Source of the DNA: Artemia franciscana
Taxonomy: Eukaryota; Arthropoda; Branchiopoda; Anostraca; Artemiidae
Assembly (NCBI RefSeq): GCF_032884065.1
Contig: NC_088863.1
Location: 62,441,512-62,505,511, forward strand
DNA length: 64,000 nt
Reading direction: 5' to 3'
Translations under genes and position numbers: made by a program
Part shown: positions 1-62,365 of the stretch, one piece after another
Layout of the letters: every line of letters starts with the position of its first letter
Position numbering within the stretch: the first letter of the stretch is position 1
The notes under the pieces: model-generated
The model's input: the letters and a program-made list of their open reading frames with translations, nothing else
Told to the model about the DNA's origin: nothing
The model's database searches: none

Positions 1-881
1 TTTTTTATTTAATGTTATAAAGAGTCAGCCAATGATATATCTTTTATGAGTATATCCCGTGCCTTTTAAGCCGTTCTTCCAGTTTATCACTAAATATTTG
101 CACCGGCTTAGCACAACTATCGTGAGTTGCAATCTGATTTATCCTTTCTTTTTAATTAATCAAAAAAGTGTCATTTTGTCGATTCAATAAATTATAGCTG
201 GCTCCCTCAATGTCATTGTCTTTGCTTTAGCAGCCTCATATGGTTTTTCAAATGACTATATCTGTGTCTAGCCTCGATCTGTCTTCCTCTCGTGCGTTCG
301 CCCTATAATCAAAATGGGCAATATAGAATCAATGTAAACAATATGCTGGTGTACATTGATAAACCATATCAATCTGCTCGCACCTATCATATCAACTTGT
401 CCCAAGTGATTGTGTGCTGCTTAAACTAAATTAACTCCAACACTATGCAACCTTATTTATAAAATTGAAATGATTTTTTCAATAGGAAACACTGAGTGTA
501 GTGAGATGGTAGCTGAGTGGTTTCGTTGAAAACTAGCAAAATTTTATTTTTACTCAAACACAAGATTAAAAAAATTTAGTTTTTGGTTTTATAATCATAC
601 TTTTATCATCATCTGCTGCATAACTCAGAAACTACCCATCAAATCAGCTTGTCTCAAGTGATTATGTGTTGTTTAAACTAATATCACTCCTACACTATGC
701 AACCTTCGTTAATCAAATTTAATTTTTTTTTTCAATAAGAAACACTGAGTGAAGCGAGATGGTAGCTGAGTTGCTTCGTCGAAAACTAGCAAAATTTTAT
801 TTTCACCCAAACACAAAATAAAAAAAAAAACTTTTTGGTTATATAATCACACTTTTATCATCACTTGCTGCATAACTCAGA

Positions 882-884
882 AAT
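882..884. repeat. Target-site duplication AAT, left
   Basis: AAT precedes the element start and is repeated at 2639-2641. Only one AAT is present at the unoccupied paralogous site near 13780. Confidence 0.8.
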
Positions 885-2638
885 CAAACAGTTCGTGGTA
901 ACGAACTGTAGTAAGGAGCGACCCGGCTCAATAGTAAACGAAACTCTAAAAAACGGAATTTCGATGCTAAAAGATATATCAAAAGAATCGGATTTTTATG
1001 CTGATTTCAAATATATAAGTTTTATCAAGTTTAATTATTGTCATCAAAAGTTACGAGCCTGAGAAAATTTGCCTTATTTTGGAAAATATGGGGTAACACC
1101 CCCTAAAAGTCATAGGATGACCTTTATAGGATAAAAATTACACCATCGCATTCAGCGTATCAGAGAACCCTATAGAAAAAATTTCAAGGTCCAATCTACA
1201 AAAATGTGGAATTTCGTATTTTTTGCCAGAAGACAAATCACGGGTGCGTGTTTATTTGTTTTTTTGTTTTTTGTTTTTTTTTTCCCCAGGGGTCATCGTA
1301 TCGACCAAGTGGTCCTAGAGTGTTGCAAGAGGGCTCATTCTAACGGAAATGAAAAGTTCTAGTGCCATTTTTAAGTGACCAAAAAAATTGGAGGGCACCT
1401 AGGCCCCCTCCCACGCTCATTTTTTTCCCAAAGTCAACGGATCAAAATTTTGAGATAGCCATTTTGTTCCGCAGAGTCGAAAACCATAATAACTATGTCT
1501 TTTGGCATGACTTACCCCCCACAGTGCCTGGGGGAGGGGCTGCAAGTTACAAACTTTGACCAATGTTTACATACAGTAATGGTTACTGGGAAGTGTACCG
1601 ACGTTATCAGGGGGATTTTTTTGGTTTGGGTGTGGGGTTCAGGGGAGGGGGCTATATGGGAGGATCTTTCCTTGGAGGAATATTTCATGGGAGAAGAGAA
1701 ATTCAATGAAAAGGGCGCAGGACTTTCTAGCATTACTATAAAAAAAAACAATGAAAATATAAACATGAAAAAGTTTTTTCAATTGAAAGTAAGGAGAAGC
1801 ACTAAAACTTAAAAAGGAACAGAGATTATTACGCATATGAGGGGTTCAAAAAATACTTTACCATAAAGAGCGAGGTATTTAGGAGGAGATAAACACTTCA
1901 CTCTTTATGCTAAAATTTTTTTAAATAATTTCAACTATTTATTCTACGGCCTTTCTGATTCAGGGGTCATTCTTAAAGAATTGGGACAAAACAAGATTTA
2001 GTGTGAAAAGCGAGGTATTAACGAGGGGCCAACCCCCTCATATATATAATCAAAAATGTAATAATATAAAAGTTTGTTACGTAAGTTAATTCTTAAGTTA
2101 CGTATTTTATTTTACTAATAAAAACGTTCGTTAAAAATAAAAGATCTAGTTGCCTTTTTAAGTAACCGAAAAATTGGAGGGCAACAAGACCTCCTTCCCC
2201 ACCCCTTATTTCTCAAAATCGTCTGAACAAAACTAAGAGAAAGCCATTTAGCCAAAAAAAGAATTAATATGCAAATTTCATTTTAATAATTTATGTACGG
2301 AGAGCCAAAATCAGTCGTGCATTAATTAAAAAACTTTCAGAAATTAAATAAAAAAAAACAAGTTTTTTTAAATGAAAGTAAGGAGCGACATTAAAACTTA
2401 AAACGAACAGAAATTACTCCGTATATGAAAGGGGCTTTTCCTCCTCGACACCCCGCTCCTTGCGCTAAAGTTTGATTCTTTCTCGCAACTCTACTTTTTA
2501 AAACAATAAAAAACTTTAGCGTAAGGAGCGGGCTGTCGAGGAGGAAAAGCCCCTTTCATATACGGAGTAATTTCTGTTCGTTTTAAGTTTTAATGTCGCT
2601 CCTTACTTTCATTTAAAAAAACTTGTTTTTTTTTATTT
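885..2638 (+). mobile_element. Hairpin-rich element, full-length copy 1 (1754 bp)
   Basis: This interspersed element begins CAAACAGTTCG and ends CTTG plus a T-rich run ATTT. It is flanked by AAT on both sides (882-884 and 2639-2641), and copy 2 shows the site without it. The first 30 bases hold a 9-bp stem hairpin (ACAGTTCGT, loop GGTA, ACGAACTGT). The last 300 bases form a long imperfect hairpin with arms 2343-2470 and 2514-2638. Between them are shorter inverted modules and a block with the phrases TTCTAGTGCC and TGGAGGGCA. No long open frame is present, so it is non-autonomous or wholly non-coding. I cannot assign it to a named superfamily: the 3-bp duplication is compatible with several DNA-transposon groups, but the two ends are not simple inverted repeats of each other. 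Confidence 0.85.
2343..2638. repeat. Terminal long hairpin of the element
   Basis: The left arm 2343-2470 is close to the exact reverse complement of the right arm 2514-2638, with a loop of about 43 bases. The arms contain the recurrent phrases AAGGAGCGACATTAAAACTT, CGTATATGAAAGGGGC and CGCTAAAG. The equivalent structures in other copies are 12614-12910 and 18253-18550, with more divergent examples at 31650-31975 and 55290-55632. An arm of this length would fold very stably as single-stranded DNA or RNA. Confidence 0.9.
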
Positions 2639-2839
2639 AATTACCCATAAGGCTGCGCTGTAAGAGGACTTGCTTTCAATCACTCCCTTGAGGCTGCGCA
2701 TGCGTAATGGTTAGAAACAACCTTTGTATCAACCTATCCCTGTCTCTACTAACCCCACTCTCCCATAATATTACAAATTCCTGGAGCTCTTAGAAATTTA
2801 GATTTTTCAAAATTGTAATGATAAAATATATATATATAG

Positions 2840-2905: not shown

Positions 2906-3149
2906 CAAAGTACAAATGGTTTACCGTTTGAACTTTGCAATGATCCTAAAGGCATAGTTTTTGGACCTTTTAACTATGCTGAATCAAATAGATTTATCAA
3001 ATTTTGATCGGAAAAGTCTTTGGTGAAAAAGAAGAGTGTAAGTGGGGCCAGTTGCCCTTCAAACTTTTTTGTCGCTTTAAAGGGCCCTATTAAATTTTAT
3101 TTGTGTTTGTGTGGGACCCCTCTTAATCTCCTAGGACCTTTTGTTTGAT

Positions 3150-3645
3150 GCGATCATTTCTGAAAAAAAGTAAAAAAAAAAAAAAATAATAAACAGCACC
3201 CGTTATCTTTCCTCTGGCAGAAAAAAACGATATTCCAATTTTTATGTAGATGGTAGCTCCAAACCTCTACAGCAGGGTTCTCTGAAATGCTGAATCTGAT
3301 GGCGTGATTACTGTCAACATTCCATTTTTCGAAAATCATATGAATTTTGTCAGGCTTGTAGCTTTTGATAGGTAACATTAAATCAATAAATTTTTATATA
3401 TTTGGAATCGTTTTAATTGTTATCAGAATTTCGTCTTTTGGAGTTTCGGTTACTATTGGGCCAAGTCGCTCAATACTTACCGCTCGCTTTAAAGAACTAT
3501 TTGGTACCGTAGAGACGACATAATTTTTTGTGATTGTATTTAATTTGTCACTATTCATGTTGTTGAATGTTGAGACCCTTGCCCCTTTTATCAGAAAATA
3601 ATCCTTTTTGAAAATTTTGCTCAATTTTTCTTTAATTGTTATTCT
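3150..3645 (-). repeat. Divergent relative of the hairpin-element 5' region
   Basis: Read on the minus strand this follows the same order of phrases as 905-1300 of the full-length element: GAGCGAC, then CCCAATAGTAACCGAAACTC, then CATCAGATTCAGC, ending in a poly-T-rich run. It contains two open stretches, 3394-3624 (76 codons) and 3154-3378 (74 codons). I regard these as chance frames in an old element copy because the related full-length elements do not keep them open. Copies lie at 14281-14768 and 23700-24190. Confidence 0.6.
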
Positions 3646-5068: not shown

Positions 5069-5071
5069 AAT

Positions 5072-7114
5072 CAAACAGTTCGTGGTAACGAACTGTAGTA
5101 AGGAGTGACCCGGCTCAATAGTAACCAAAACTCTAAAAAATGGAATTTTGATACCAATACCTACATCAAAAGAATCGCATTTTAATGCTGATTTTAAATA
5201 TATAAGTTTCATCAAGTTTAGTCTTACCCATCAAAAGTTACGAGCCTGAGAAAATTTGCGTTATTTTAGAAAATAGGGGGAAACGCCACCTAGAAGTCAT
5301 AGAATCTTAACGAAAATCACACCATCAGATTCAGCGTATCAGAAAACCCTACTGTAAAAGTTTCAAGCTCCTATCTACAAAAATGTGGAATTTTGTATTT
5401 TTTGCCAGAAGGCAGATCACGGATGCGTGTTTATTTGTTTTTTTGTTGTTTTTTTTCCCAGGGGTGATCGTATCGACCCAGTTTTCCTAGAATGTTGCAA
5501 GAGGGCTCATTCTAACGGAAATGAAAAGTTCTAGTGCCCTTTTAAGTGACCAAAAAAATTGGAGGGCACCTAGGCCCCCTCCCACGCTAATTATTTTACC
5601 AAAGTCAACAGATCAAAATTCTGAGATAGCCATTTTATTCAGCGTAGTCGAAAAACCTTATAACTATGTCTTTGGGGACGACTTACTCCCCCACAGTCCC
5701 CATGGGAGGGGCAACAAGTTACAAACTTTGACCAATGCTTACATATAGTAATGGTTATTGGGAAGTATACAGGCGTTTTCAGGAGGATTTTTTTGGTTGG
5801 GGGAGGGGTTGAGAAGAGGGGGATATGCTGGGGGAACTTTCCATCGATAATTTGTCATGGGGGAAGAAAATCTCCATGAAGGGAGCGCAGGATTTACTAG
5901 CATTATTTAAAAACACAATGAAAAAAAAATATGAAAAAATCTTTCAGCTGGAAGTAAGGAACAGCATTAAAACTTAAAACAAACGGAAATTATTACCCAT
6001 TTGAAGGGCTCACCTCCTCCTACTACCTCGCTCTTTACGTTAAAGTATTTTTAGTAATTTCAACTATTTATTCTACGGCTTTTGTGATTCTGGGGTCATT
6101 CCTAATGAATTGGGACAAAATTTAAGCTTTAGTGTAAAGAGCGAGGATCTGACAAGGGGGCGAACCCCCTCATATATGTAATAAAAATATGAGAATAAAA
6201 AAGTTCTTTACGTAAGCTAATTTATAAGTTACGTAAATCTTTTACTAATAAAAATATTCGTAAAAAATTAAAAGTTCTAGTTGCCTTTTTAATTAACCAA
6301 AAAATCGGAGGGCAACTAGGCTTCCTCCCCCGCTCTTTTTTTCTCAAAATCATTCGATCAAAATTATGAGAAAGCCATTTAGCCAAAAAAAAAAATGTAA
6401 ATTTCGTTTTAATTATTCCTCTGCGGAGAGCCAAAATCAAAACATGCATTGATTCAAAAACGTTCAGAAATTAAATAAAAAAAAAAAAGTTTTTTTTAAC
6501 TGAAAGTAAGGAGCGACATTAAAACTTAAAACGAACAGAAATTACTTCGTATATGAAAGAGGCTGCTTCCTCATCAACGCCCCGCTCTTTACGCTAAAGT
6601 TTGACTCTGTCTCTCAATTCTTCTTTTTAAAACAGTAAAAAACCCAGATCCGATGTCGGATGTGACCTGTAGGCGTCTAGGAAAAAAAAGTAAATGAATT
6701 TTAAGTGGCTATGCGTGGTTTCTGGAAAACAGGAAAGGAGTTATCGGATCAAGCTGAAATTTCGCGGATAAGCTCCTGGGCCCTAGGGGACCTTAACTAG
6801 TGAATTTCAGCCCGATCGGACAACGTTAAAGGGGGGCTTGGGTTGACAGGTCGAAACTTTTGGCCAGATTTTCCCCATGAAGAAAAAGTTGGAGGGGGAT
6901 GAAATTTTGCACGTTTCTTAGTTGGAGCTCGGGCTACGAAATGCATCCCTCCCCATCCGTCTGCGACCACTGGAACCGAAGATCGCTTAACATTGTAGTG
7001 TCTCGCCTCTTTATAGAGGCACGAGTGTGCCTCCTTGACGAAGTAATTTCTGTTCGTTTTAAGTTTTAATGTCGCTCCTTACTTTCAGTTAAAAAAACTT
7101 GTTTTTTTTTATTT
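5072..7114 (+). mobile_element. Hairpin-rich element, full-length copy 2 (2043 bp)
   Basis: Same family and orientation as the copy at 885. It is flanked by AAT at 5069-5071 and 7115-7117, and the empty site is preserved near 26870. It is longer than copy 1 mainly because the terminal hairpin is interrupted. The left arm (from about 6472) is intact to the loop. Roughly 6648-7042 is then unrelated, more GC-rich sequence, and the outer part of the right arm resumes at about 7043. No intact gene is visible. Confidence 0.85.
6648..7042. other. Foreign segment replacing part of the terminal hairpin
   Basis: About 395 bases, noticeably richer in G and C than their surroundings, sit where the loop and inner right arm of the terminal hairpin should be. 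They contain a small inverted pair, GCCTC and GAGGC, around 7010-7020. I find no long open frame, and the segment is not repeated elsewhere in the window. It could be a nested insertion or captured host DNA. Confidence 0.6.
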
Positions 7115-7599
7115 AATCATTCATAATAGTAATTGTGTATCATAGTTTTTGCATGCGGCAATTGTTGAGTTTGCCATGATTGAATGCTTAATTAAGGGGT
7201 ATTCCCCACGAAGATCACGCGCATGTTCGTACTAGTTGAAAATTTGACTATATTTTAAAGAGAGAATATACAATTTGAGCAAGAAAATGTTGCAAAAAGG
7301 GCAAAAGTATAAGGGTGAGAGCCAGGGAGGACCTCGTTCCCCGGGATTTGTCCATTAGAATGTGTGGTAAGAAATTTACTTGGTATTTAATTAATTAATT
7401 AATTTAAGTCGTTCCCAAAGACATAGTTATTAGGTTCTTCGGGTTGGATTGGAATTGTGAGTTGGATTGAAAATCTGACTATATTTTTAGAGAGAGAAAA
7501 TACCAATCGAACTAGAAAATATTCAATCCCGGACTCACACAAACTTTCTAGCTCTAGGGGTGGTAGCTTCCACTCAAGTCGTAATAAACAAAACTCTAC

Positions 7600-10591: not shown

Positions 10592-11212
10592 TTGATTTTA
10601 GATTTTGATACAGTAAAACCGATTTTGATACAGTAAATGTTCTTTTAGTTTTCTATGTAAATCATTAATCCCAGAGAGGTTCGAATAATAGAGTTCTAAG
10701 AATTTGTTTAAGAAACAAACCTTTCTTAAGAAACGATTTTTCTTGCAGCCACAACATGTGCAAATACCTTTAATCATTGACACTTTATTTCTTTTTGAAA
10801 CTGTCCGAGTTAAGGACTCGGTTGCAGTAATCCTTTTACATTGCATACAATAAATCTCCGTTTATTGCAGAATAAAGTTTTTAAACAAATTTAAACTATT
10901 AAACATATCAATAAAAACTAACAGACTTCTACAATCTTAGGAAAGTCTCAAGAGTAGTAAATAACAAGCATTGAAATTCCTCAGGCTTGACTTTTTTTAG
11001 ATTTGGAATTTGTTTACTAAAATCAGCTCCTAATGAATTGCTGACTTTGCAGAAGGGATTAAAAGTTGTTTACAACGAAAATCCAAACTCGTCAAGATAA
11101 AAGATCAAATACCGCATTATACAATTAATGAATTGCAATCGTTGGCCGAAAACCATAATTTATAGACTATTGGCAAGAAGATTAAAATACCCAATACCAT
11201 CAATGATCATAT
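10592..11212. repeat. Duplicated segment bearing the zinc-ribbon ORF
   Basis: Matches 16255-16859 closely. Beyond the ORF it contains only AT-rich sequence with no frame I recognise. In both places its right edge is the start of a hairpin element. Confidence 0.8.
10598..10846 (-). CDS. Zinc-ribbon ORF resembling a Polinton/adintovirus-type protein
   Basis: An open frame of 82 codons. Two CxxC pairs are visible, C-M-Q-C before the first Met codon and near it, and C-T-C-C plus CGCKKNRF further on. They lie in the pattern YCxxC, about 25 residues, KGxCxxCGxKKxRF. As far as I recall this matches the small zinc-ribbon domain (DUF5679 type) found in Polinton/Maverick and adintovirus-like elements and large DNA viruses. 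In those it normally precedes a longer structural-type protein. Here the frame ends soon after, and no polymerase, integrase, protease or capsid frame is nearby. It is best read as a fragment of an old integrated element, duplicated at 16248-16493. The upstream codons (Glu-Ile-Tyr-Cys) fit the family, so the true reading may start before this Met. Confidence 0.5.
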   Translation of the reverse strand: MQCKRITATESLTRTVSKRNKVSMIKGICTCCGCKKNRFLRKVCFLNKFLELYYSNLSGINDLHRKLKEHLLYQNRFYCIKI

Positions 11213-12910
11213 CAAACAGTTCGTGGTAACGAACTGTAGCAAGGAGCGACCCGGCTCAATAGTAAACGAAACTCTAAAAATTTTTTTTAGAAATTTTCTG
11301 AAATTTTGATAACAATAGTTACATCAAAAGAATTGCATTTTAATGCTGATTTTAAATATATAAGTTTCATCGAGATCAGTTATACCCATCAAAAGTTACG
11401 AGCCTGAGAAAATTTGCCTTTTTTTAGAAAATAGGGGAAAACATCCCCTAAAAGTCGTACAATCTTAACGAAAATCAAACCATCAAATTCAGCGTATCAA
11501 AGAAACCTACTGTAGAAGTTTCAAGCTCCTATCTACAAAAATGTGGAATTTCGCATTTTTTGCCAGAAGACAGATCACGGATGAGTGTTTATTTGTTTTT
11601 TGTTTTTTTTTTTTTTGTTTTTTTTTTTCCAGTTGTTATCGTATCGACTGAGTAGTCCTAGAATGTCGCAATTGGGCTCATTCTAACGGAAATTAAAAGT
11701 TCTAGTGCCCTTTTTGAGTGACCAAAATAATTGGAGGGTACCTAGGCCCCCTCCCACGCTCATTTTCCCCAAAAGTCAGCGGATCAAAATTCTGAGGTAG
11801 ACATTCCCATAATTGAAAAACCTAATAACTATGTCCTTAGCGACGACTTACTCCCCCGCAGTCCCCGTGGGAGGGGCTGCATGTTACAGACTTTGACCTG
11901 TGTTTACATATAGTAATGGTTACTAGGAAGCGTAGAGACGTTTTCAGTTTTTTTTTGTTTAGGGGAAGAGTTAAGGGGGGAGGGGTACGTGGGAGGATAT
12001 TTCCAAGGAGAAAATTCTCATGGGGAAAGATAATTTCAATGAAGGGGGCACAGGATTTTCTAGTATTATTTGAAAAAACAATGAAAAAATAAATATGAAA
12101 AGTTTTTTCTACTGAAAGTAAGGAGCAGCATTAAAACTTAAAACGAACAAAAATTATTATGCATATGAGGGGTTTACCTCCTCGTTGTACCTCACTCTTT
12201 ACGCTAAGGTATTTTTAGTAATTTCAACTGTTTATTCTGCGGCCTTTGTAATTCAGAGGTCATTCTTAAGGAATTGGGACAAAATCTAAGCTTTAGTGTA
12301 AAGAGTGAGGTATCGAAGAGGGTTGAACCCCCTCATATACGCAATAAAAACATACGAATATAGAAGTTCGCTAAGTAAGTTAATTCGTAAGTTAAGTATA
12401 TTTTTCACCAATGAAAGCGTTTGTAAAAAGTTAAAAGTTCTAGTTGCTTTTTTAAGTAACATAAAACTTGGAAAGCAACTAGGCCTCCTCCCTCGCTCCT
12501 TTTTTCTCAAAACCTTCCGATTAATTGCAATTAATTAATATGCAAATTTTGTTTTAATTATTTATGTGTGGAGAGCTAAGATCAAAACATGCATCAATTC
12601 AAAAATGTCCAGAAATTAAATAAAAAAACAAGTTTTTTTTTTAAAAGAAAGTAAGGAGCAACATTAAAACTTAAAACGAACAGAAATTACTCCGTATGTA
12701 AAAGGGGCTTTTCCTCCTCAACGCCCCACTCTTTACGCTAAAGTTTCTTACTGTTTTAAAAATAGAGTTAAGAGAAAGAGTCAAACTTTAGCGTAAAGAG
12801 CGGGGCATTGAGGAGGAAAAGCCCCTTTCATATACGGAGTAATTTCTCTTCGTTTTAAATTGTAATGTTGCTCCTTACTGTCATTTGAAAAAAACTTGTT
12901 TTTTTTATTT
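11213..12910 (+). mobile_element. Hairpin-rich element, copy 3 (1698 bp)
   Basis: Starts CAAACAGTTCG and ends TTATTT like the full-length copies, with terminal hairpin arms near 12614-12745 and 12783-12910. The flanks differ in kind from copies 1 and 2: TAT precedes it and AAT follows it, so no clean target duplication is visible. Its left flank is the zinc-ribbon segment and its right flank is the start of duplication copy 2. It therefore sits exactly on a duplication junction. Confidence 0.82.
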
Positions 12911-15900
12911 AATGTTATAAAGAGTCAGCCAATGATATATCTTTTATGAGTATATCCCGTGCCTTTTAAGCCGTTCTTCCAGTTTATCACTAAATATTTG
13001 CACCGGCTTAGCACAACTATCGTGAGTTGCAATCTGATTTATCCTTTCTTTTTAATTAATCAAAAAAGTGTCATTTTGTCGATTCAATTAATTATAGCTG
13101 GCTCCCTCAATGTCATTGTCTTTGCTTTAGCAGCCTCATATGGTTTTTCAAATGACTATATCTGTGTCTAGCCTCGATCTGTCTTCCTCTCCTGCGTTCG
13201 CCCTATAATCAAAATGGGCAATATAGAATCAATGTAAACAATATGCTGGTGTACATTGATAAACCATATCAATCTGCTCGCACCTATCATATCAACTTGT
13301 CCCAAGTGATTGTGTGCTGCTTAAACTAAATTAACTCCAACACTATGCAACCTTATTTATAAAATTGAAATGATTTTTTCAATAAGAAACACTGAGTGTA
13401 GTGAGATGGTAGCTGAGTGGTTTCGTTGAAAACTAGCAAAATTTTATTTTTACTCAAACACAAGATTAAAAATTTTAGTTTTTGGTTTTATAATCATACT
13501 TTTATCATCATCTGCTGCATAACTCAGAAACTACCCATCAAATCAGCTTGGCTCAAGTGATTATGTGTTGTTTAAACTAATATCACTCCTACACTATGCA
13601 ACCTTCGTTAATCAAATTTAATTTTTTTTTTCAATAAGAAACACTGAGTGAAGCGAGATGGTAGCTGAGTTGCTTCGTCGAAAACTAGCAAAATTTTATT
13701 TTCACCCAAACACAAAATAAATAAAAAACTTTTTGGTTATATAATCACACTTTTATCATCACTTGCTGCATAACTCAGAAATTACCCATAAGGCTGCGCT
13801 GTAAGAGGACTTGCTTTCAATCACTCCCTTGAGGCTGCGCATGCGTAATGGTTAGAAACAACCTTTGTATCAACCTATCCCTGTCTCTACTAACCCCAAT
13901 CTCCCATAATATTACAAATTCCTGGAGCTCTTAGAAATTTTGATTTTTCAAAATTGTAATGATAAAATATATATATATAGATATTTTTTTTTTTTTTTTA
14001 TTTTTTTTTTTTTTTTATTTTTTTTTTTTTTTTTAGCAAAGTACAAATGGTTTACCGTTTGAACTTTGCAATGATCCTAAAGGCATAGTTTTTGGACCTT
14101 TTAACTATGCTGAATCAAATAGATTTATCAAATTTTGATCGGAAAAGTCTTTGGTGAAAAAAAAGAGTGTAAGTGGGGCCAGTTGCCCTTCAAACTTTTT
14201 TGTCGCTTTAAAGGGCCCTATTAAATTTTATTTGTGTTTGTGTGGGACCCCTCTTAATCTCCTAGGACCTTTTGTTTAATGCGATCATTTCTGAAAAAAA
14301 GTAAAAAAAACAACAAATAAACAGCACCCGTTATCTTTCCTCTGGCAGAAAAAAACGATATTCCAATTTTTATGTAGATGGTAGCTCCAAACCTCTACAG
14401 CAGGGTTCTCTGAAATGCTGAATCTGATGGCGTGATTACTGTCAACATTCCATTTTTCGAAAATCATATGAATTTTGTCAGGCTTGTAGCTTTTGATAGG
14501 TAACATTAAATCAATAAATTTTTATATATTTGGAATCGTTTTAATTGTTATCAGAATTTCGTCTTTTTTAGTTTCGGTTACTATTGGGCCAAGTCGCTCA
14601 ATACTTACCGCTCGCTTTAAAGAACTATTTGGTACCGTAGAGACGACATAATTTTTTGTGATTGTATTTAATTTGTCACTATTCATGTTGTTGAATGTTG
14701 AGACCCTTGCCCCTTTTATCAGAAAATAATCCTTTTTGAAAATTTTGCTCAATTTTTCTTTAATTGTTATTCTTAAGCCATGGACCTAGCTGTTACTACG
14801 AGATGTCTTAACAACAATTCACTAATTAATCTAAGCCTGAAAATACAGATGAGCGATGATCCATATAGGCTAAATCTAGCCGAAATCTATAAAGAATACT
14901 GGATAGTTTCAATTTGATTCGGCCATTCACATCCAGAGGAGCTAGGCCCTTACCTCCACGTGATAATTAACCCGCGAGGTTTTGTGTATTGTGGAATTAA
15001 TCTTGTGTCTGATCCGAGAGTTGAAAGTTGGGTTTTATATTTTTGTTTTCTTGGTTAGTCAAGGTAGAAACTAGGGTTAGTTGCCTAGAGAAAAGTTGAC
15101 ATTAGATTGATTTGGTATAGGAAGAGAATACTCTGCTAAGCAAGATATCTTTTCGGGAGAGAAATAAAGTGAACTGTTGGAGGTTGATGCTTGTAGCCTT
15201 TGAAATGGCGTCTTGGGCCAATTAGTGTGGGACTTTCCTACCGCAGGGGAAATATACTTGTCACGTTAGGGTAATACACCTGAGAAATCCGTGTCGTGTT
15301 AGGGTCATCTCTGAACCCTGAGGTAATGCCCAGGAATTTCTAGTGGCATTAGAGATCTCCAAATAGTGGCGGAGGCGGAGTAGGGACCTCCTTCCCCTTT
15401 CCTTCACTGATGGTAGCGAGTAAAGGGGTTATCAGGAGCACTGATAGCAAAAAACACACGTTTCCGAAGATACGGTTGGATTTAGCCTACAGGTAGGAGG
15501 CTGTACAAATTTGCAGGGAAAGACAGATTTGAAGCATTGGGAATGTAAAATTTGATGAGCTAGACTCTAGCTAGAAATGATGCATTGCATAAGTGAGGAT
15601 ACCTTTGAAGAATGGCTTAGTCCTTGCCCAAAAACATAAAAATTAGAGAAAAATACGCAAACTGACCATCTTTGCTGGAATAATGAGACAATTGTAAGAT
15701 TTTGAGAATAAAGAGAAATAACATGGTGTTAATTGAGTTTTCGGTTTCCAGTGGGGGAATCTCTCCGTATTAGAAAATTTAACAGGTTGTAAGAACGATT
15801 CAGAGAAAATGAAAGTTGGATTATTATTTGAGTGAATTTGCAGACTTTGAGATAACCTTCAGTAACGACTGTTATAAGATTATTCAAGACAGCAAATTAG

Positions 15901-16254
15901 GAAAATTTGTCAGTTTCGTTTGCACGTTTGACATGGAAAGTGACAGGCACCTATCCTGTTGAGTAATCAGCTTAAGTGGATATTACATTTAGAGCACCAG
16001 TATCCGGGATGGATACGAGATTTTTTCTGCAGGGTAGTTTCCCTGTATGATTTTTAGTACAGCTAATGCACTAGTGGAATATCCGTACGGTTGCTCAGTT
16101 TACTTCTTGTCTAACCCTTGCTATTTTGTTTGTCAGAAATAGATTCCAATCGTGGAAGATTTATTTGCGCCAAATTAAGTTGTTATTTGCCAATTAAGTT
16201 TAGGTATTCCGGCTATTTTAGAGATTGTTGAATATGCTTATGCAGTCCTAATCA
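12911..16254 (+). repeat. Segmental duplication, copy 2
   Basis: This is nearly identical to 11-5071 without the hairpin element found at 885-2638. It is therefore the empty-site reference for that insertion: the sequence runs AACTCAGAAATTACCCATAA unbroken near 13770. It also keeps the short TA run followed by a T-rich tract near 13965-14034, where copy 3 carries the Helitron array. At 16255 the similarity switches to the sequence of 10592 onward, so this copy is joined to a different flank from copy 1. It carries an extra stretch at about 16069-16118 that copy 1 lacks but copy 3 has. Confidence 0.88.
14281..14768 (-). repeat. Divergent hairpin-element relative (duplicate)
   Basis: The copy-2 counterpart of 3150-3645, with a few substitutions. 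Both open stretches (14285-14506 and 14522-14752) are retained with minor changes, as expected from recent segmental duplication. Confidence 0.6.
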
Positions 16255-16493
16255 AACATTTTAGATTTTGATACAGTAAAACCATGTTCTTTTAGTTTTC
16301 TATGTAAATCATTAATCCCAGAAAGGTTCGAATAATAGAGTTCTAAGAATTTGTTTAAGAAACAAACCTTTCTTAAGAAACGATTTTTCTTGCAGCCACA
16401 ACATGTGCAAATACCTTTAATCATTGACACTTTATTTCTTTTTGAAACTGTCCGAGTTAAGGACTCGGTTGCAGTAATCCTTTTACATTGCAT
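16248..16493 (-). CDS. Zinc-ribbon ORF (duplicate)
   Basis: An 81-codon open frame identical to 10598-10846 through most of its length, including the zinc-ribbon cysteines. It differs at the C-terminus because the flank is rearranged at about 16255: a piece of the segment near 10610-10630 is missing and the frame runs into the end of duplication copy 2. No associated genes are present. It is a fragment copied together with 10592-11212. Confidence 0.48.
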   Translation of the reverse strand: MQCKRITATESLTRTVSKRNKVSMIKGICTCCGCKKNRFLRKVCFLNKFLELYYSNLSGINDLHRKLKEHGFTVSKSKMFD

Positions 16494-16859
16494 ACAATAA
16501 ATCTCCGTTTATTGCAGAATAAAGTTTTTAAACAAATTTAAACTATTAAACATATCAATAAATACTAACAGACTTCTACAATCTTAGGAAAGTCTCAAGA
16601 GTAGTAAATAACAAGCATTGAAATTCCTCAGGCTTGACTTTTTTTAGATTTGGAATTTGTTTACTAAAATCAGCTCCTAATGAATTGCTGACTTTGCAGA
16701 AGGGATTAAAAGTTGTTTACAACGAAAATACAAACTCGTCAAGATAAAAGATCAAATACCGCATTATACAATTAATGAATTGCAATCGTTGGCCGAAAAC
16801 CATAATTTATAGACTATTGGCAAGAAGATTAAAATACCCAATACCATCAATGATCATAT

Positions 16860-18550
16860 CAAACAGTTCGTGGTAACGAACTGTAGCAAGGAGCGACCCG
16901 GCCCAATAGTAGCCGAAACTCTAAAAATCTTTTTAGAAATTTTTGGAAATTTTGATACCAATAGTTACATCAAAAGAATCGCATTTTAATGCTGATTTTA
17001 AATATATAAGTTTCATCGAGATCAGTTATACCCATCAAAAGTTACGAGCCTGAGAAAATTTGCCTCATTTTAGAAAATAGGAAAAAACATCCCCTAAAAG
17101 TCGTACAATCTTAACGAAAATCACACCATCAAATTCAGCGTATCAAAGAAGCCTTCTGTAGAAGTTTCAAGCTCTCATCTACAAAAATGTGGAATTTCGC
17201 ATTATTTGCCAGAAGACAGATCACGGATGAGTGTTTATTTGTTTTTTTTTTTTTTTTTTTTTTTTTTTCCAGTTGTTATCGTATCGACTGAGTAGTCCTA
17301 GAATGTCGCAAGAGGGCTCATTCTAACGGAAATTAAAAGTTCTAGCGCCCTTTTTGAGTGACCAAAATAATTGGAGGGCACCTAGGCCCCCTCCAACGCT
17401 CATTTTCCCCAAAAGTCAGCGGATCAAAATTCTGAGACAGCCATTTTATTCACCATAATCGAAAAACCTAATAACTATGTCTTTCGGCTTACTCCCCCGC
17501 AGTCCCCGTGGGAGGGGCTGCAAGTTACAGACTTTGACCTGTGTTTACATATAGTAATGGTTACTAGGAAGTGTAGAGACGTTTTCAGGTTTTGTTTTGT
17601 TTAGGGGGTGAGTTAGGGGGGGGGTACGTGGGAGGATATTTCCAAGGAGAAACTTCTCATGGGGGAAGAGAATTTCAATGAAGGGGGCACAGGATTTTCT
17701 AGCATTATTTGAAAAAACAATGAAAAAATAAATATGAAAAGTTTTTTTCTACTGAAAGTAAGGGGAAGCATTAAAAATTAAAACGAAAAAAAATTATTAC
17801 GCATATGAGGGGTTTACCTCCTCGTTATACCTCACTCTTTACGCTAAGATAGTTTTATTAATTTCAACTGTTTATTCTACGGCCTTTGTAAATCAGAGGT
17901 CATTCTTAAGGAATTGGGACAAAATCTAATTTTGCCTGTAAAGAGCGAGGTATCGACGAGGGTTGAACCCCCTCATATACGTAATAAAAACATACGAATA
18001 TAGAAGTTCGTTACGTAAGTTAATTCGTAAGTTACGTATATTTTTTACCAATGAAACCGTTTGTAAAAAATTAAAAGTTCTAGTTGCCTGTTTAAGTAAC
18101 CAAAAACTTGGAGAGCAACTAGGCCTCCTCCCTCACTTCTTTTTTCTCAAAATATTCCGATTAATTGCAATTAATTAACATGCAAATTTTGTTTTAATTA
18201 TTTATCTGTGGAGAGCCAAGATCAAAACATGCATTAATTCAAAAACGTCCTGAAATTAAATAAAAAAAAACAAGTTTTTTTAAATGAAAGTAAGGAGCAA
18301 CATTAAAACTTAAAACGAACAGAAATTAATCCGTATATGAAAGGGGCTTTTCCTCCTCAACGCCCCACTCTTTACGCTAAAGTTTCTTACTGCTTTAAAA
18401 ACAGCGTTAAGAGAAAGAGTCAGACATTAGCGTAAAGGGCGGGGCATTGAGGAGGAAAAGCCCCTTTCATATACGGAGTAATATCTGTTCGTTTTATTTT
18501 TTAATGTTGCTCCTTACTTTCATTTGAAACAACTTGTTTTTTTTTTATTT
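16860..18550 (+). mobile_element. Hairpin-rich element, copy 4 (1691 bp)
   Basis: A close relative of 11213-12910 with the same two flanks: the zinc-ribbon segment on the left and the start of duplication copy 3 on the right. It was copied with the surrounding unit rather than inserted independently. The poly-T inside it (about 17240-17268) differs in length from the other copies. Terminal hairpin arms are about 18253-18384 and 18424-18550. Confidence 0.82.
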
Positions 18551-19601
18551 AATGTTATAAAGAGTCAGCCAATGATATATCTTTTATTAGTATATCACGT
18601 GCCTTTTAAGCTGTTCTTCCGGTTTATCACTAAATATTTGCACCGGCTTAGCACAACTATCGTGAGTTACAATCTGATTTATCCTTTCTTTTTAATTTAT
18701 CAAAAAAGGGTCATTTTGTCGATTCCATAAATTATAGCTGTCTCCCAAAATGTCATCGTCTTTGCTTTAGCAGCCTCATAAGGTTTTTCAAATGACTAAA
18801 TCTGTGTCTAGCCTCGATCTGTCTTCCTCTCGTGCGTTCGCCCTATAATCAAAATGGGCAATATAGAATCAATGTAAACAATATGCTGGTGCACATTTAT
18901 AAACCATATCAATCTGCTCGCACCTATCATATCAACTTGTCCCAAGTGATTGTGTGCTGCTTAAACTAAATTAACTCCAACACTATGCAACCTTATTTAT
19001 AAAATTGAAATGATTTTTTCAATAAGAAACACTGAGTGTAGTGAGATGGTAGCTGAGTGGTTTCGTTGAAAACTAGCAAAATTTTATTTTTACTCAAACA
19101 CAAGATTAAAAAAATTTAGTTTTTGGTTTTATAATCATACTTTTATCATCATCTGCTGCATAACTCAGAAACTACCCATCAAATCAGCTTGTCTCAAGTG
19201 ATTATGTGTTGTTTAAACTAATATCACTCCTACACTATGCAAACTTCGTTAATCAATTTTTTTTTCAATAAGAAACACTGAGTGAAGCGAGATGGTAGCT
19301 GAGTGGCTTCGTCGAAAACTAGCAAAATTTTATTTCCACCCAAACACAAAATAAAAAAAAGTACTTTTTGGTTATATAATCACACTTTTATCATCACTTT
19401 CTGCATAACTCAGAAATTACCCATAAAGCTGCGCTGTAAGAGGACTTGCTTTCAATCACTCCCTTGAGGCTGCGCATGCGTAATGGTTAGGAACAACCTT
19501 TGTATCAACCTATCCCTGTCTCTACTAATCCCACTCTCCCATAATATTACAAAGTCCTGGAGCTCTTAGAAATTTTGATTTTTCAAAATTTTAATGACAA
19601 A

Positions 19602-20449: not shown

Positions 20450-20800
20450 CAACAAAGCACCGGGACACAGGGAGTATAAATGACGACCCGGGGGAAACAG
20501 GGGGATATAAATGACGACCGGGACAAAAAAACTAAAAAGAAAAAAAACTAAAAACTAATAAAAAAACTAAAAAATCTAAAAATCTAAATAAGCTAAAAAA
20601 GAAAAAAAAAGGAAAAAAATAAAGGAGAAAAACAAAACTAAAAAACGAATGTATATACAGACCGGGACACCGGGATACAAATGACGACCGGGACCCGGGA
20701 CACAGGGAATATAAATGACGACCGGGACACAGGGACACAACTACAACGGGGACACCGGGGGAAACAGGGGGATGTAAATGACGACCGGGACACCGGGACA
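20450..20800. repeat. GGGACAC minisatellite
   Basis: Variants of GACCGGGACACAGGG, AATATAAATGACGACC and GACACCGGGGGAAACAG in tandem. Related arrays are at 10240-10540, 22300-22370, 22520-22650, 22780-22930 and, inverted, 61030-61480 and 61590-61740. They always occur inside Helitrons in this window. Confidence 0.88.
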
Positions 20801-20804
20801 GGGA

Positions 20805-21002
20805 ATGGTCGATTAGCAATCACCATCAACAAAGCTCAAGGGCAATCATTAGAATCATGAGGTATAGATCTGAATACAGATTGTTTTCCCATGGACCATT
20901 ATATGTTGCATGTTCAAGAGTCGGTAAACCTGACAATCTATTTATATGCAAAGACAATGGGACAGCAAAGAATGTTGTATATTCGCAAGTTTTACGTAGT
21001 TA
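20805..21002 (+). pseudogene. Decayed 3' end of Helitron helicase gene
   Basis: The reading frame gives [13 protein letters not shown], a stop, then GIDLNTDCF and VGKPDNLF. It corresponds to the end of the helicase frame at 62808-64000 (motif region [11 protein letters not shown] and the final [11 protein letters not shown]). A stop codon replaces the residue after the SLE motif. It shows that this non-autonomous element derives from a coding Helitron by internal loss. The same remnant is at 22928-23125 and, on the minus strand, 60835-61015. Confidence 0.75.
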
Positions 21003-21146
21003 AAACCATATATATATATATCTATCTATATTCACAGGTGGGACATAGGGACACAACTACAATGGCGCGTAACTATTATGGCGCGTAACGACTTACGCGC
21101 GCGGGGGGGCTTGGGGGGGGCGCGAAGCGCCCCCACCAACTAGGTG

Positions 21147-21179
21147 TTGGGGTGGCGCGAAGCGCCACCCCAACAGCTA

Positions 21180-21180
<1 letters not shown>
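21147..21180 (+). other. Helitron 3' hairpin and CTAG terminus
   Basis: Stem 21147-21158 pairs with 21162-21173 over 12 perfect bases with a GAA loop, then CAG and CTAG at 21177-21180. Host TA repeats follow immediately. Confidence 0.9.

Positions 21181-21268
<88 letters not shown>
21181..21268. repeat. (TA)n tract between Helitrons A and B
   Basis: About 44 TA repeats lie between the CTAG end of one element and the TC start of the next. Confidence 0.95.
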
Positions 21269-21271
<3 letters not shown>

Positions 21272-21824
21272 ATATATATAAAAATAAGTTGTCTGTGGAT
21301 GGATGGATGTGTCAGGTGACGTCACCTGAAAAAACTGGATTAGGTGACGTCAAAACTGAAAAAACTAAAAAAAGGCAAAAACTACAAAAAAAACTAAAAA
21401 CTAATAAAAATAATAAAAAAGCTAAAAAACTGAAAAAACTATAAAGGTAAAAACCAATAAAAAACTAAAAAAAAAAACTGAAAAAACTAAAAAAAGACAA
21501 AAACTACAAAAAAAAACTAAAAACTAATAAAAAAAGTAAAAAAGCTAAAAAACTAAAAAAACTAAAAAAACTAAAAAAAGGTAAAAAACTAAAAAAAATA
21601 AAAAATAAAAAAAAACTAAAAAAAAGGAAAAAACTGAAAAATAAGCTAAAATAAAGGTAAAAACCAATAAAAAACTAAAAAAAAAAAAGGAAAAAACTAA
21701 TAAATGACGACACTCAAAGAGAAAGCGACCAGGACAAAAGGAATGTTCGATTAGCAATCAACAAAGCACCGGGACACAGGGAGTATAAATGACGACCAGG
21801 ACATAAGTAAAAAAAAAAAAACTA
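21269..21824 (+). mobile_element. Helitron B, 5' half only
   Basis: Begins TCTATATATATAAAAATAAG, with the 16-bp palindrome at 21313-21328 and the A-rich minisatellite. It stops at the start of Helitron C without a 3' hairpin or CTAG. It is either truncated by the insertion of C or the product of an unequal exchange within the array. Confidence 0.75.
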
Positions 21825-23462
<1,638 letters not shown>

Positions 23463-23699
23463 AGCAAAGTACAAATGGTTAACCATCTGAACTTTGCAAT
23501 GATCCTAAAGCCATAGTTTATGGACCTTTTAACTATGCTGAATCAAACAGATTTATCAAATTTTGATCGGATGTCTTTGGTGAAAAAGAAGAGTGTAAGT
23601 GGGGCCAGTTGCCCTTCAAACTTTTTGCCGCTTTAAAGGGCCCTATTAAATTTTATTTGTGTTTGTGTGGGATCCCTCCCAATCTCCTAGGACCTTTTG

Positions 23700-24190
23700 T
23701 TTGATGCGATCATTCTTTAAAAAAAAAGCAAAAAAAAAAAATAAACAGCACCTGTTATCTTTCCTCTGGCAAGAAAAAACGATATTCCAATTTTTATGTA
23801 GATGGTAGCTCGAAACCTCTACAGCAGGGTTCTCTGAAATGCTGAATCTGATGGCGTGATTACTGTCAACATACAATTTTTCAAAAATCATATGAACTTT
23901 GTCAGGTTTGTAGCTTTTGATAGGTAACATTAAATTAATAAATTTTTATATATTTGGAATCGTTTTAGTCGTTATCAGAATTTCGTCTTTTGGAGTTTCG
24001 GTCACTATTGGGCCAGGTCGCTCAATACTTACCGCTTGCTTTAAAGAACCATTTGGTACCGTAGAGACGACATAATTTTTTGTGATTGTATTTAATTTGT
24101 CGCTATTCATGTTGGTGAATGTTGGGACCCTTGCCCCTTTTATCAGAAAATAATCCTTTTTGCAAATTTTGATCAATTTATCTTTAATTG
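23700..24190 (-). repeat. Divergent hairpin-element relative (duplicate)
   Basis: The copy-3 counterpart of 3150-3645. A partial second copy of its outer part lies at 25208-25390 because of the local tandem duplication in this unit. Confidence 0.58.
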
Positions 24191-26730: not shown

Positions 26731-27439
26731 CTAACCCTTGCTATTTTGTTTGTCAGAAATAGATTCAAATCGTGAAAGATTTATTTGCGCCAAATTAAGT
26801 TGTTATTTGCCAATTAAGTTTAGGTATTCCGGCTATTTTAGAGATTGTTGAATATGCTTATGCAGTCCTAATCATTTATAATAGTAATTGTGTATCATAG
26901 TTTTTGCATGCGGCAATTGTTGAGTTTGCCATGATTGAATGCTTATTTAAGGGATATTCCCCACGAAGATCACGCGCATGTTCGTAGTAGTTGAAAATTT
27001 GACTATATTTTTAAAGAGAAAATATACAATTTGAGCAAGAAAATGTTGAATGCCGGACTCACACAGACTCTCTAGCTCTAGGGATGGTAGAGCAAGAAGG
27101 GCAAAAGTATAAGGGTGAGAGCCAGGGAGGACCTCGTTCCCCGGGATTTGTCCATTAGAATGTGTGGTAAGGAATTTACTTGGTATTAATTAATTTAAGA
27201 ATGTTCCCAAAGACATAGTTATTAGGTTCTTCGGGTTGGATTGGAATTTTGAGTTGGATTGAATATCTGACTATATTTTTAGAGAGAAAAAATACCAATT
27301 GAGCTAGAAAATATTCAATCCTGGACTCACACAAACTTTCTAGCTCTAGGGGTGGTAGCTTCCACTCAAGTCGTAATAAGCAAAACTCTACCGTTGAAAA
27401 GTTTAGACAGATATGAAAAGAAAGAAATGCCCGTAGGAA

Positions 27440-39833: not shown

Positions 39834-40453
39834 CTAGAAGATGTTTTTTTCATATATGAAAAAGTAGAATAACAATGATCAGTCTATCAAATGTGTACTT
39901 AACAGGAGAGATTCCATAATCTTCTATCTAATTATATTAATTGTGTTCGAAAGTTGGGATAAGTAAAACTATATCATTGTCACAAATTAAAGCAGGCTTT
40001 CGGCTTGGTTATAAAAACAGCTGTTTTGTTTTGGTTTAACAGGTTTAAAAGAGATACAAAAAAGAAAACATTTATTTGAATTTAAATTAGCATTGGGTTC
40101 CAATGGTTACATAGCTATTATATAAAAGTGAATTTGCTTGCATTTTTATTTTTGCAGTATTTAGATTTCTTCAGTAAGCAGGATACGAAGATTTTTTCAA
40201 AAGCAAGTATAAGCGAAATACTTATACTAGCTAAATCTGCTTGGCAATGCGTAGTACCCGAAGCGATTCCCGCTGCAGCAAGGTTGGCTGGCAAGTTTGC
40301 TACTTGTCCCTGTAAAAAACACCCAGCTACTGAAACGTCGATTCGACGCCCTATTCAATAGCAATGGCTCAGGAGGATCTTTATCCTTATTCTTTAGTAT
40401 AAGTAAAACTCCCTCAATATTACATATTAAAGTTAGTCGTTTACTTGGTAATT

Positions 40454-40934
40454 AAATAAAAAAACTAATTTTTTTAGCTGAAAGTAAGGAGCGACATTAA
40501 AACTTAAAACGAACAGAAATTACTCCGTATATGAAATGGGTTGTCTCCTCCGCAATTCCTCGCTCTTTACGCTAAAGCTTTTAATTGTAGTAGAATTGTG
40601 GCAAAAAATACAAAATTCCACATTTTTGTAGATAGGAGCTTGAAACTTCTACAATAGGGTTCTCTGATACGCTGAATCCGATGGTGCCATTTTCGTTAAG
40701 ATCCTACGACTTTTAGGGGGTGTTTCCCCCTATTTTCCTAAATAAGGCAAATTTTCTCAGGCTCGTAACTTTTGATGGGTTAGACTAAACTTGATGAAAC
40801 TTATATATTTAAAATCAGCATTAAAATGCGATTCTTTTGATGTAGCTATTTATATCAAAATTCAATTTTTTAGAGTTTTGGTTACTATTGAGCCAGGTCG
40901 CTCCTTACTACAGTTCGTTACCACGAACTGTTTG
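40454..40934 (-). mobile_element. Hairpin-rich element, 481-bp deletion derivative
   Basis: In reverse orientation this has the same start (CAAACAG, hairpin stem ACGAACTGT) and the same end as the 1.7-2.0 kb copies. It is flanked by ATT at 40451-40453 and 40935-40937, the complement of the AAT seen elsewhere. Almost all of the middle is missing and only one arm of the terminal hairpin remains. It lies between exon 3 and exon 4 of the transporter gene. It shows that the two ends are enough to define a mobile unit, as in MITE-like derivatives. Confidence 0.8.
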
Positions 40935-40982
40935 ATTAGCGTCAAAGATCGATCAGGGCATAAACAAAGGATTCATTCAGTT

Positions 40983-58384: not shown

Positions 58385-58570
58385 CTATAAGAAAGTAAAT
58401 ATTTATAAAACAAAAATATAAGATAATCCGACTCTATATACAAGTATCTAAATAAAAAAAAATTAACTGGACAAAAATTAAAATAATATTTTCGTTATTA
58501 AAGGTTATATAAATGCCAAGTCTATACTTCATAATCATATTAACAGAAATATAAATCTACGACATGAGAG

Positions 58571-58670
58571 NNNNNNNNNNNNNNNNNNNNNNNNNNNNNN
58601 NNNNNNNNNNNNNNNNNNNNNNNNNNNNNNNNNNNNNNNNNNNNNNNNNNNNNNNNNNNNNNNNNNNNNN
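58571..58670. other. Assembly gap (100 N)
   Basis: Exactly 100 unknown bases, the conventional size for a gap of unknown length. It interrupts the Helitron Rep-region frame on its high-coordinate side and lies 187 bases before the first visible transporter exon. The junction across it is therefore not proven contiguous. Confidence 0.98.
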
Positions 58671-60193
58671 TCAGGCGGATATATAGCAAACGTTCTGATT
58701 CAATTTTAGCATACATATCAACGACAAATTGGTGAAACAATTCACGGCATTTTAAAATATTATTTTCTTCATCCTGCCGAATCATTAGTCTATAGGAATA
58801 ATAATGCATTTCACTGCATTTCTTATTCATTTCTTTGTTAGTCGCTGGATTCATCAATTTAATATTAAAGTGATAGCCGTCGGCTCCATCCCAAAAAATG
58901 ATAGGATATTATAGGGCATCGTAGCATCGATGAGTTTCAGCAATTCTTAACAACTGAGCGTTTCGCTATGAAGAATAATATCTCGAGGTAAAAACTGATC
59001 ACCGACCATAACGATTGCCACTTCGTCGATAGTTGGAGCATTGTATCTACGCACATGTTGGCCAGGAGGCGTTTTGTCAGCGGAAATAACAATTTTATGC
59101 GTATCAGTAGGCATCAAATCGATGGCTGTTTTGAACAGACGCACTAAATTATTATTTTCGTGGAAAAGATGTTGCAATTGGGAAACGATTGTCCTTTCAA
59201 CGTTGGGAGAAATTTCGCAAAGTGCATTCAATTCAGAATTTCTATCACTGATGAAGTACAATTGTAAAAATTTATGATTCTCGCCTGAGAATGATAGAAG
59301 GGACCCTGCTCTATGATAAATTTGCCCTTTTACTTTGAAAGTAGACATAAATTGATCTGGATTTTCGATTTGGGCTCCAAACGACGTCATTTGGAAACAT
59401 GAGTTGTATTTTCTGATTTTTGACAAAAAACGCTTAGATTCTGACGTAGTTCCAGTAAGGAAAGTCTTCAATGGCTCTGGTGGTGCAGCCAATAGAGGAA
59501 GTTTAACTTTTCCTGAGGCGCAACACATTCCCATTGTTTCACCATTGAATTTCAAGGCCTTGCAATAGGGACAAATTTTAGACATTGTCCCGATTTGAAC
59601 ACATCTACTCAAGCTATAATCATCGACTGGGTTGTATATGAATGCCAGGCGATAACTTTCAGGTTGCTCTGATTCCTCGGCACGCTTTCTTTTCTTACTT
59701 TCTCTATCAGCAGCAAGCCTGATTTCTTGCTGTTCTTGTGATTCCTCGGCACGCTTTCTTTTCTTACTTTCTCTATCAGCAGCAAGCCTGATTTCTTGCT
59801 GTTCTTGTAATTCCTCGGCACGCTTCTTTTTTCACTTTCTCTTTTAGCAGCAAGTCTGCTTCCGCGTTGCTCTGGTAGTTCCTCGGCACGCTTTCTGTTC
59901 ATTCTTTCTCTATCAGCCTCAAGCCTGTTTCCTTGCTGTTCTTTTGATTCCTCGGCACGCTTTCTGTTCTTTCTTTCTCTATCAGCCTCAAGCCTGTTTC
60001 CTTGCTGTTCTTTTGATTCCTCGGCACGCCTTCTTTTAGCAGCAAGTCTGCTTTCGCGTTGCTCTGGTAGTTCCTTGGCACGCTTTCTTTTCTGACTTTC
60101 TCTATCAGCAGCAAGTTTTTTGGCATAGACTCTTTGAGCATCTTCATCGGCTTTTGCCATGGTAAGTTCATCTGTCATTGTAAACTTAAACAT
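58671..60193 (-). pseudogene. Helitron transposase N-terminal and Rep region, broken
   Basis: Possible start at 60193. Roughly six to seven repeats of about 28 residues (RLAADRE.KRKRAEE.EQ type, 60140-59660) form a basic, probably coiled-coil N-terminus. A zinc-finger-like block follows (CPYCKALKFNGETMGMCC, about 59580-59530), then the Helitron-specific stretch ending at 58947. Next come YHFNIKLMNP and MHYYSYRLMIRQ (about 58870-58780), just before the Rep nicking domain, which would lie in or beyond the gap. Breaks: a frameshift near 59821-59832 within the repeats, another near 58955-58975, and an in-frame TAA at 58909-58911. It normally encodes the rolling-circle nickase-helicase. This copy cannot make it. 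Confidence 0.82.
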
Positions 60194-60358
60194 TAATAGA
60201 TTTCTACGTGAACATATGTCTTAAATATCTTGAATGACGTCTCCGTCAAAGCAAAAAAGACGACAACTAATTTCATGACGTCAGTCAACACAGAAACATG
60301 ACGTCACCTGATCCACAGACAGACACACAGACAGACAACTTATTTTTATATATATAGA
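58671..60358 (-). mobile_element. Helitron H4, 5' part, cut by the gap
   Basis: The minus strand starts TCTATATATATAAAAATAAG at 60358. CTGTCTGTGGATCAGG with TGACGTCA repeats follows, then the N-terminal half of a Helitron protein. It is truncated at the N run. The 3' half (helicase, hairpin, CTAG) is not seen on the far side. Confidence 0.85.
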
Positions 60359-60362: not shown

Positions 60363-60576
60363 CTAGCTGTTACAATTAAAAATTTCTCTTTGAACGACCT
60401 TCTTACAATTAAAATTTTCTCTTTGAACGATCTTCTTAAATACTTATAATGACGTCATATACTAAGCATCGTCATAACAAACATGACGACAACTAACTTT
60501 ATGACGACATACAGCTCAATCCTTATAATGACGTCAGTCGACAGACAGACAAACAAATTATTTTTATATATATAGA
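60363..60576 (-). mobile_element. Miniature Helitron H3 (214 bp)
   Basis: The minus strand begins TCTATATATATAAAAATAAT at 60576 and ends AACAGCTAG at 60363. It is directly followed by a few bases and the TC start of H4 at 60358. It has TGACGTCA-type repeats and a duplicated phrase CGTTCAAAGAGAAA near the 3' end, but not the 12-bp GC hairpin of its neighbours. It contains no coding sequence. Confidence 0.65.
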
Positions 60577-60719: not shown

Positions 60720-60823
<104 letters not shown>

Positions 60824-60834
60824 TTAACTACGTA

Positions 60835-62141: not shown

Positions 62142-62365
<224 letters not shown>

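Follow-up and report, generated by a model that had tools for sequence, protein, structure and literature searches.

What kind of element occupies positions 884 to 2641 of the 64,000-nt stretch of Artemia franciscana DNA analyzed here (the window; C1:62441512-62505511), where exactly does it begin and end, and how would it have come to be inserted? Copies were sought in the window and in the genome as a whole (1,270,528,402 bases, 6,468 contigs). Their structure is (T)CAAACAG...ATTTAAT, the start being alternatively written as TCAAACAG-hairpin, and the Artemia element, as we refer to it below, is probably a non-autonomous, non-coding rolling-circle (HUH, Helitron-like) transposon.

The 24-nt start, CAAACAGTTCGTGGTAACGAACTG, has five exact matches in the window (0 mismatches), at positions 885, 5072, 11213, 16860 and, on the minus strand, 40934, compared to a mean of 0.00 in 100 shuffles. 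With exact starts where none would be expected by chance, the repeated element that the initial annotation had recognized at 885, 5072, and minus 40454 is real. Its count of three independent copies holds for those three, but the window contains four independent insertions, the one overlooked having been duplicated (copies A and B). The copies and the features related to them are as follows.

884..2641, + strand: copy e1, from the ambiguous T (884) and CAAACAG to ATTTAAT; earlier given as 885-2638, to which the element-encoded AAT is added
5071..7117, + strand: copy e2, with an empty site at 26813-26933
11212..12913, + strand: copy A, left flank TAT, right end AAT
16859..18553, + strand: copy B, tandem duplicate with copy A, flanks shared
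40451..40935, - strand: copy C, ~485 bp, made up of the start region, a single arm, and the 3' end
1..13, + strand: third A-type copy, represented by its 3' end (ATTTAAT) and starting upstream of the window (upstream sequence L048)
16253..16258, + strand: CAAACA remnant in a duplicated block, at the position corresponding to the e2 insertion, with the remainder gone at the duplication breakpoint
2945..3503, - strand: old degenerate relative, ~67% alike, duplicated at 14076-14631 and partly at 23504-23861
13723..13839, + strand: empty site of e1, compared with the joined flanks
26813..26933, + strand: empty site of e2, compared with the joined flanks

The subfamilies are ~78 to 83% alike overall, yet the start 24-mer is identical in all five window copies. 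Positions 1-29882 of the window contain nested tandem and segmental duplications, mostly 93 to 99% alike, and one duplication breakpoint (16258-16264) lies 6 nt into the start of an element, at the base of the hairpin. If C1 is chromosome 1 (Z), the far edge of the window coincides with the start of the 62.5- to 70-Mb non-pseudoautosomal stretch of that chromosome (PMC11492255).

Empty sites had been noted in the window for two insertions, and those of e1 (885) and e2 (5072) bear this out. The e1 empty site at 13723-13839 is identical to the joined e1 flanks at 117/117 positions, and a second one, at 19363-19474, shows 98.2% identity to them. The e2 site at 26813-26933, compared by eye, has a single AAT and one difference in the next seven bases.

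These sites, together with the AAT found on both sides of several copies, had been taken as a 3-bp AAT target duplication around an element ending at ATTT (2638), a reading that the genomic copies refute. We examined 38 copies fetched from 41 listed matches (2,676 candidates at first look, 40 scored), the window's own copy, one on the short contig C4835, and a partial match beside L021 being left out. The base preceding CAAACAG was T in all 38, and the base before that T was A in 27, G in 6, T in 5, and C in none. The left trinucleotides were accordingly variable (TAT 15, AAT 7, TTT 5, CAT 4, TGT 3, AGT 3, GAT 1), so that a boundary of AAT with CAAACAG...ATTT is not what the copies have in common (left AAT in 7/38). 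On the right, AAT directly followed ATTT in 29/29 copies in which the 3' end was anchored at the nearest full anchor without demanding AAT; left and right trinucleotides were equal in 7 of these 29 and unequal in 22. Since AAT follows ATTT in every one of them without being demanded, it is part of the element, whose actual end is therefore ATTTAAT (2641). The duplication reading arose from a small sample, three of the four independent window insertions sitting after AAT; the fourth, represented by the duplicated pair A and B, follows TAT on the left, with AAT at its right end.

Other ways of placing the 3' end were also applied. With the furthest end taken and partial anchors allowed, 34 rows resulted and AAT stood straight after the anchor in 27; in the other seven, four anchors were short and were then followed by ATTTAAT, and three (L013, L024, and L026) landed on a neighbouring copy with a different end. 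A pattern itself demanding TTTAAT located the 3' end in 35/38 copies. The remaining three were L023 and L037, cut inside the right arm, and L046, cut near consensus position 924; no rule behind the 3' loss was found for these three. Eight additional loci (L049-L056) contained 14 starts, 8 of them with a reachable 3' end and 5 clearly ending in TAAT; left and right trinucleotides were equal in one of these five, a copy that abuts another copy. In a wider set including old copies, T precedes the start in 61/65 (C in 3, G in 1). The A before the T (27/38) has a p of ~1e-6 against an expectation of 32.5%, and the next target base is T in 22/35 (p ~2e-4 against 32.5%). A target-site duplication of at least 2 bp is thus absent, and insertion occurs after T, mostly after AT; the shared T at the left border is ambiguous, being attributable to either element or target.

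The ends so delimited have a common architecture. Read from the left, the order is T or nothing, CAAA, a 9-bp hairpin, and the 13-mer AGTAAGGAGCGAC; from the right, it is AAT, ATTT, an A/T palindrome, and the inverted 13-mer. In e1, these features are located at the following positions.

888..909, + strand: 5' terminal hairpin, stem of 9 bp (888-896 / 901-909), loop of 4 nt
910..922, + strand: left 13-bp inverted repeat, AGTAAGGAGCGAC, immediately inside the 5' hairpin
2595..2607, - strand: right 13-bp inverted repeat (the + strand reads GTCGCTCCTTACT), immediately inside the 3' A/T palindrome
2614..2635, + strand: 3' A/T palindrome, an A-run, CTTG, and a T-run (CTAG in some copies)
2635..2641, + strand: 3' terminus ATTTAAT, its AAT element-encoded

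The short hairpin that had been described at the CAAACAG end does fold with 9 bp (DNA, -9.4 kcal/mol; z -5.19; 0/200 shuffles as good). The 3' A/T palindrome folds weakly (DNA, -3.8 kcal/mol; z -1.87; 10/200 shuffles as good). The initial annotation was mistaken in stating that neither end is an inverted copy of the other, as AGTAAGGAGCGAC at 910-922 recurs inverted at 2595-2607. The two copies of this repeat are differently placed: on the 5' side it starts 26 nt from the element end, directly after the hairpin, and on the 3' side its distance to the consensus end is 33 nt, and it stops 6 nt short of the palindrome. Between subfamilies, the first 50 nt are 96 to 98% alike and the following 50 nt 59 to 80%, the pattern that an end acting in cis would be expected to show. 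In older copies, the 5' hairpin has undergone little compensatory change, variation there being too sparse for a judgement. The model of the 3' end was built on seven rows, one of which extends 4 bases past the end. A variant start was observed at 1874 and 2760 of L067, with TTTGA after the start hairpin in place of TAGTAAGG; its match to the consensus begins only at about position 96, and the 13-mer may be absent there.

Inside the 3' end, e1 also carries the long-arm hairpin that had been reported for that side, with arms that are 98% complementary.

2342..2473, + strand: long terminal palindrome, left arm (spacer of 37 nt)
2511..2642, - strand: long terminal palindrome, right arm

Copy C has one arm of this palindrome alone, and in e2, ~400 bp of unrelated sequence (~6644-7037) replace much of the right arm. 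As it is reduced in the one and largely replaced in the other, both between proper ends, the long palindrome is probably not essential. Stop-to-stop frames that overlap e1 reach 117 codons at most, in agreement with the earlier statement that no coding frame is present. The initial annotation was right that this transposable element is non-coding, has palindromes at its two ends, and inserts precisely.

Family sequences account for 16.6% of the window and for 23.1% of six arbitrary 10-kb stretches (60 kb; 0 to 44% each; 9 starts), as measured by blastn at 1e-6 in what is a small sample with old relatives also counted. The published A. franciscana annotation gives 8.81% for Helitrons, a figure that may or may not include the Artemia element (PMC11492255). 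If the sampled density holds, a single family of non-coding, rolling-circle-like elements would count among the largest constituents of this animal genome of 1.27 Gb. Among the 35 complete copies, likeness averages 97.7%, a value that applies to the e1 subfamily because the copies were the best matches to it, and this likeness points to a recent burst of that subfamily. A 20-nt piece of the start gave 0 matches in viral_contigs and genome_contigs.

Copies of the element are also found joined head to tail. The exact junction, TTATTTAAT directly followed by CAAACAGTTCGTGGTAACGAACTG, occurs 184 times genome-wide (83 forward, 101 reverse; head-to-tail counted alone), and the junction pattern read backwards occurs 0 times genome-wide. 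From the 100 of the 184 places that were listed, four loci holding 7 junctions were fetched, three of them picked for two closely spaced junctions. L065 has three successive junctions, two exact and one with CTATTTAAT, and its units of 511 and 516 bp are 94.6% alike; in L067, two neighbours have their first 552 nt identical, a different middle, and the last ~150 nt 79% alike. In L066 and L068, the joined copies are less alike or rearranged. The near-identical neighbours, present at two of the four fetched loci (L065 and L067), fit multimers from one event, and plain tandem duplication might also have produced them. Some junctions look as though a young copy had inserted precisely where an old one ends, e.g., that of L051, where an older and a younger copy meet; serial insertion into an older copy's terminal AAT, or tandem duplication, could lie behind some of the 184. 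Such arrays make it possible to test rolling-circle copying in an animal.

The termini and their conservation, the lack of a duplication of at least 2 bp, the empty sites, the target preference, and the head-to-tail junctions and arrays are observed directly. From the lack of a duplication, the AT motif at the cuts, the palindromes, the subterminal inverted repeat, and the arrays, we infer a single-strand chemistry carried out by an HUH enzyme, with rolling-circle replication and a direction given by the end cut first. An HUH endonuclease acting in trans would cut one strand after T, usually AT, at three places, namely, the left junction ..AT/CAAACAG, the element end ..ATTTAAT/, and the target ..AT/N (the slash marks the cut). 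This endonuclease would probably recognize the palindromes at the ends together with the 13-bp inverted repeat. The target's T would be kept on the left and the element would supply AAT on the right, nothing being duplicated beyond the ambiguous T, and head-to-tail multimers would form whenever the end signal is passed over. The ends of the Artemia element would thus provide a clean cutting rule (AT/). Read backwards, the element's strong hairpin would be the Helitron-type 3' hairpin.

Single-strand cutting could also be the work of an HUH transposase of a non-Helitron kind, either IS200/IS605-like ("peel and paste") or Replitron-like. IS200/IS605 elements are cut according to a fixed short motif at the target and the element junctions, and the Artemia element has AT/ at the target, the left junction, and the right end, in addition to palindromes at both ends. 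Terminal hairpins and absence of duplication are likewise described for IS200/605 (PMC3627910). The inverted 13-mer and the head-to-tail arrays, however, suit rolling-circle replication better. Replitrons, according to a review, have direct terminal repeats of 5 to 11 bp and duplications of 2 to 8 bp (PMC10741241), neither of which is seen here: apart from a T, no direct repeat is common to CAAACAG.. and ..ATTTAAT, there is no such duplication, and a Replitron proper was therefore rejected. On the whole, we regard a non-Helitron HUH transposase as unlikely. A tyrosine recombinase (Crypton-like) or serine recombinase (IS607-like) element with the shared T as crossover site would account for nothing being duplicated beyond one T; the strong 5' hairpin, the inverted subterminal repeat, the head-to-tail arrays, and a terminal direct repeat no longer than that T speak against it and make it quite improbable.

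Two further explanations have next to no probability in our estimation. One is a DDE cut-and-paste element with a 3-bp AAT duplication, as suggested by AAT on both sides in three window copies and 7/29 genomic copies; such an element would not leave unequal trinucleotides in 22/29 with a right AAT in 29/29. The other is that the sequence is not mobile at all and owes its spread to segmental duplication. Tandem and segmental duplications are indeed plentiful in the first half of the window, but the 38 copies lie on many contigs in different, unrelated flanks and the empty sites are precise, which excludes spread by segmental duplication alone.

A rolling-circle transposon without coding capacity calls for an enzyme from elsewhere. 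A search for RepHel sequences gave 7,435 candidates, of which 150 were scored and 8 loci fetched, and RepHel genes are numerous in the genome. The ends of the Artemia element were found within 3,543 bases of RepHel in 0/8 of the fetched loci, the end models being unmatched there. One or both of the canonical Helitron end and start motifs (CAACAGCTAG and TCTATATATATA, also present in the window) were found in four of the eight, and neither in the other four. Genome-wide, 17 starts have an altered sequence after the 13-mer, with 14 different continuations, one occurring twice and one three times; the filter used passes an estimated ~13% of unrelated sequences (0.75^7), so this search says little. 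The copy at L010/L049, which shares the first 47 nt only, was considered as an autonomous partner and taken as a truncated copy, because the longest stop-to-stop frame in the 10 kb downstream has 121 codons and no 3' end was seen. No printed occurrence of GTTCGTGGTAACGAAC or GTTCGTTACCACGAAC was found in the set of papers searched.

Canonical Helitrons (Helitron1) of the same genome provide one comparison. Their ends, with a G+C-rich hairpin and CAACAGCTAG, lie in the window at 20642-21300, 22765-23300, 60500-60980 (-), and 62040-62640 (-); the frames there are presumably those of the helicase-like C-terminal part, and long TA repeats adjoin. At ~60.6 kb (-), a CTAG end is directly followed by a Helitron-like start, TCTATATATATAAAAATAA, forming a head-to-tail tandem. 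The frames at 58540-60220 (-) resemble the N terminus of a Helitron; repeats in the upstream frame match Pfam STPRs (PF21107, E 3.6e-06), the other frame has no Pfam match at E 0.1, and the next one contains a 100-N run. Like the Artemia element, these Helitrons have a TC start and occur in head-to-tail tandem in the window; unlike it, they have a G+C-rich hairpin, a CTAG end, and the start TCTATATATATAAAAA. Helitron1 is characterized by 5' TC, 3' CTRR, a 3' palindrome of 16 to 20 nt ~11 nt from the end, and insertion between A and T. The Artemia element is compatible with the 5' TC, has A before the T in 27/38, and ends in ATTTAA(T), not in CTRR. As in Helitron-like elements generally, there is no target-site duplication, the right AAT being fixed and the left side sharing T alone.

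FoHeli1 and FoHeli2 of Fusarium oxysporum start with TC, end with ATTTT, and insert after TNAT, the next base being A in the text and T in the legend of that report (PMC5148889). The Artemia element shares with them the TC start (or C after an ambiguous T) leading into a hairpin and the A/T-rich 3' end, and inserts after (T)AT where they insert after TNAT; they differ from it in having the repeat within the 5' hairpin and in coding for RepHel, the Artemia element being non-coding (PMC5148889). Helentrons and DINE-1/HINE are likewise non-coding and abundant in arthropods; they have subterminal inverted repeats as well as palindromes and leave the target unchanged (PMC4067079). Unlike the Artemia element, they use T-rich or TT sites with a variable number of terminal Ts, and the repeats of mite HINE lie ~2 to 4 nt from the 5' end (PMC4067079).

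The initial annotation knew no named superfamily with this layout. The layout does resemble, though not in every detail, that of Helitron2 (PMC3627910, PMC5148889), which carries a hairpin at either end and whose terminal inverted repeats are asymmetric (Bao and Jurka 2013, PMC3627910). The 5' repeat of Helitron2 is placed 0 to 2 bp from the end, within the hairpin, and that of the Artemia element 26 nt from it, after the hairpin (PMC3627910). The element further differs in its 3' terminus, ATTTAA(T), and in that a RepHel partner was not found in the 8 fetched loci; it also lacks the 7- to 19-bp duplications of some Chlamydomonas Helitron2 members (PMC3627910). Owing to the position of its 5' repeat, the RepHel partner not found in those loci, and the weak 3' hairpin, we do not file it as Helitron2. 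It is doubtful that the Artemia element represents a separate eukaryotic HUH lineage, apart from Helitron1, Helitron2, and Replitron, that cuts at AT/, has a hairpin followed by an inverted repeat at both ends, would possess its own transposase, and would make up about a fifth of the A. franciscana genome. Helitron2 is the nearest known system, and the one that the element would work like: both have palindromes on both ends, including a 5' hairpin (here with a 9-bp stem, z -5.19), asymmetric inverted repeats, a T at the 5' end, and a 3' repeat upstream of the 3' hairpin (in the Artemia element, of the weakly folding A/T palindrome), at 33 nt here, slightly beyond the published ~20 to 30 (PMC3627910).
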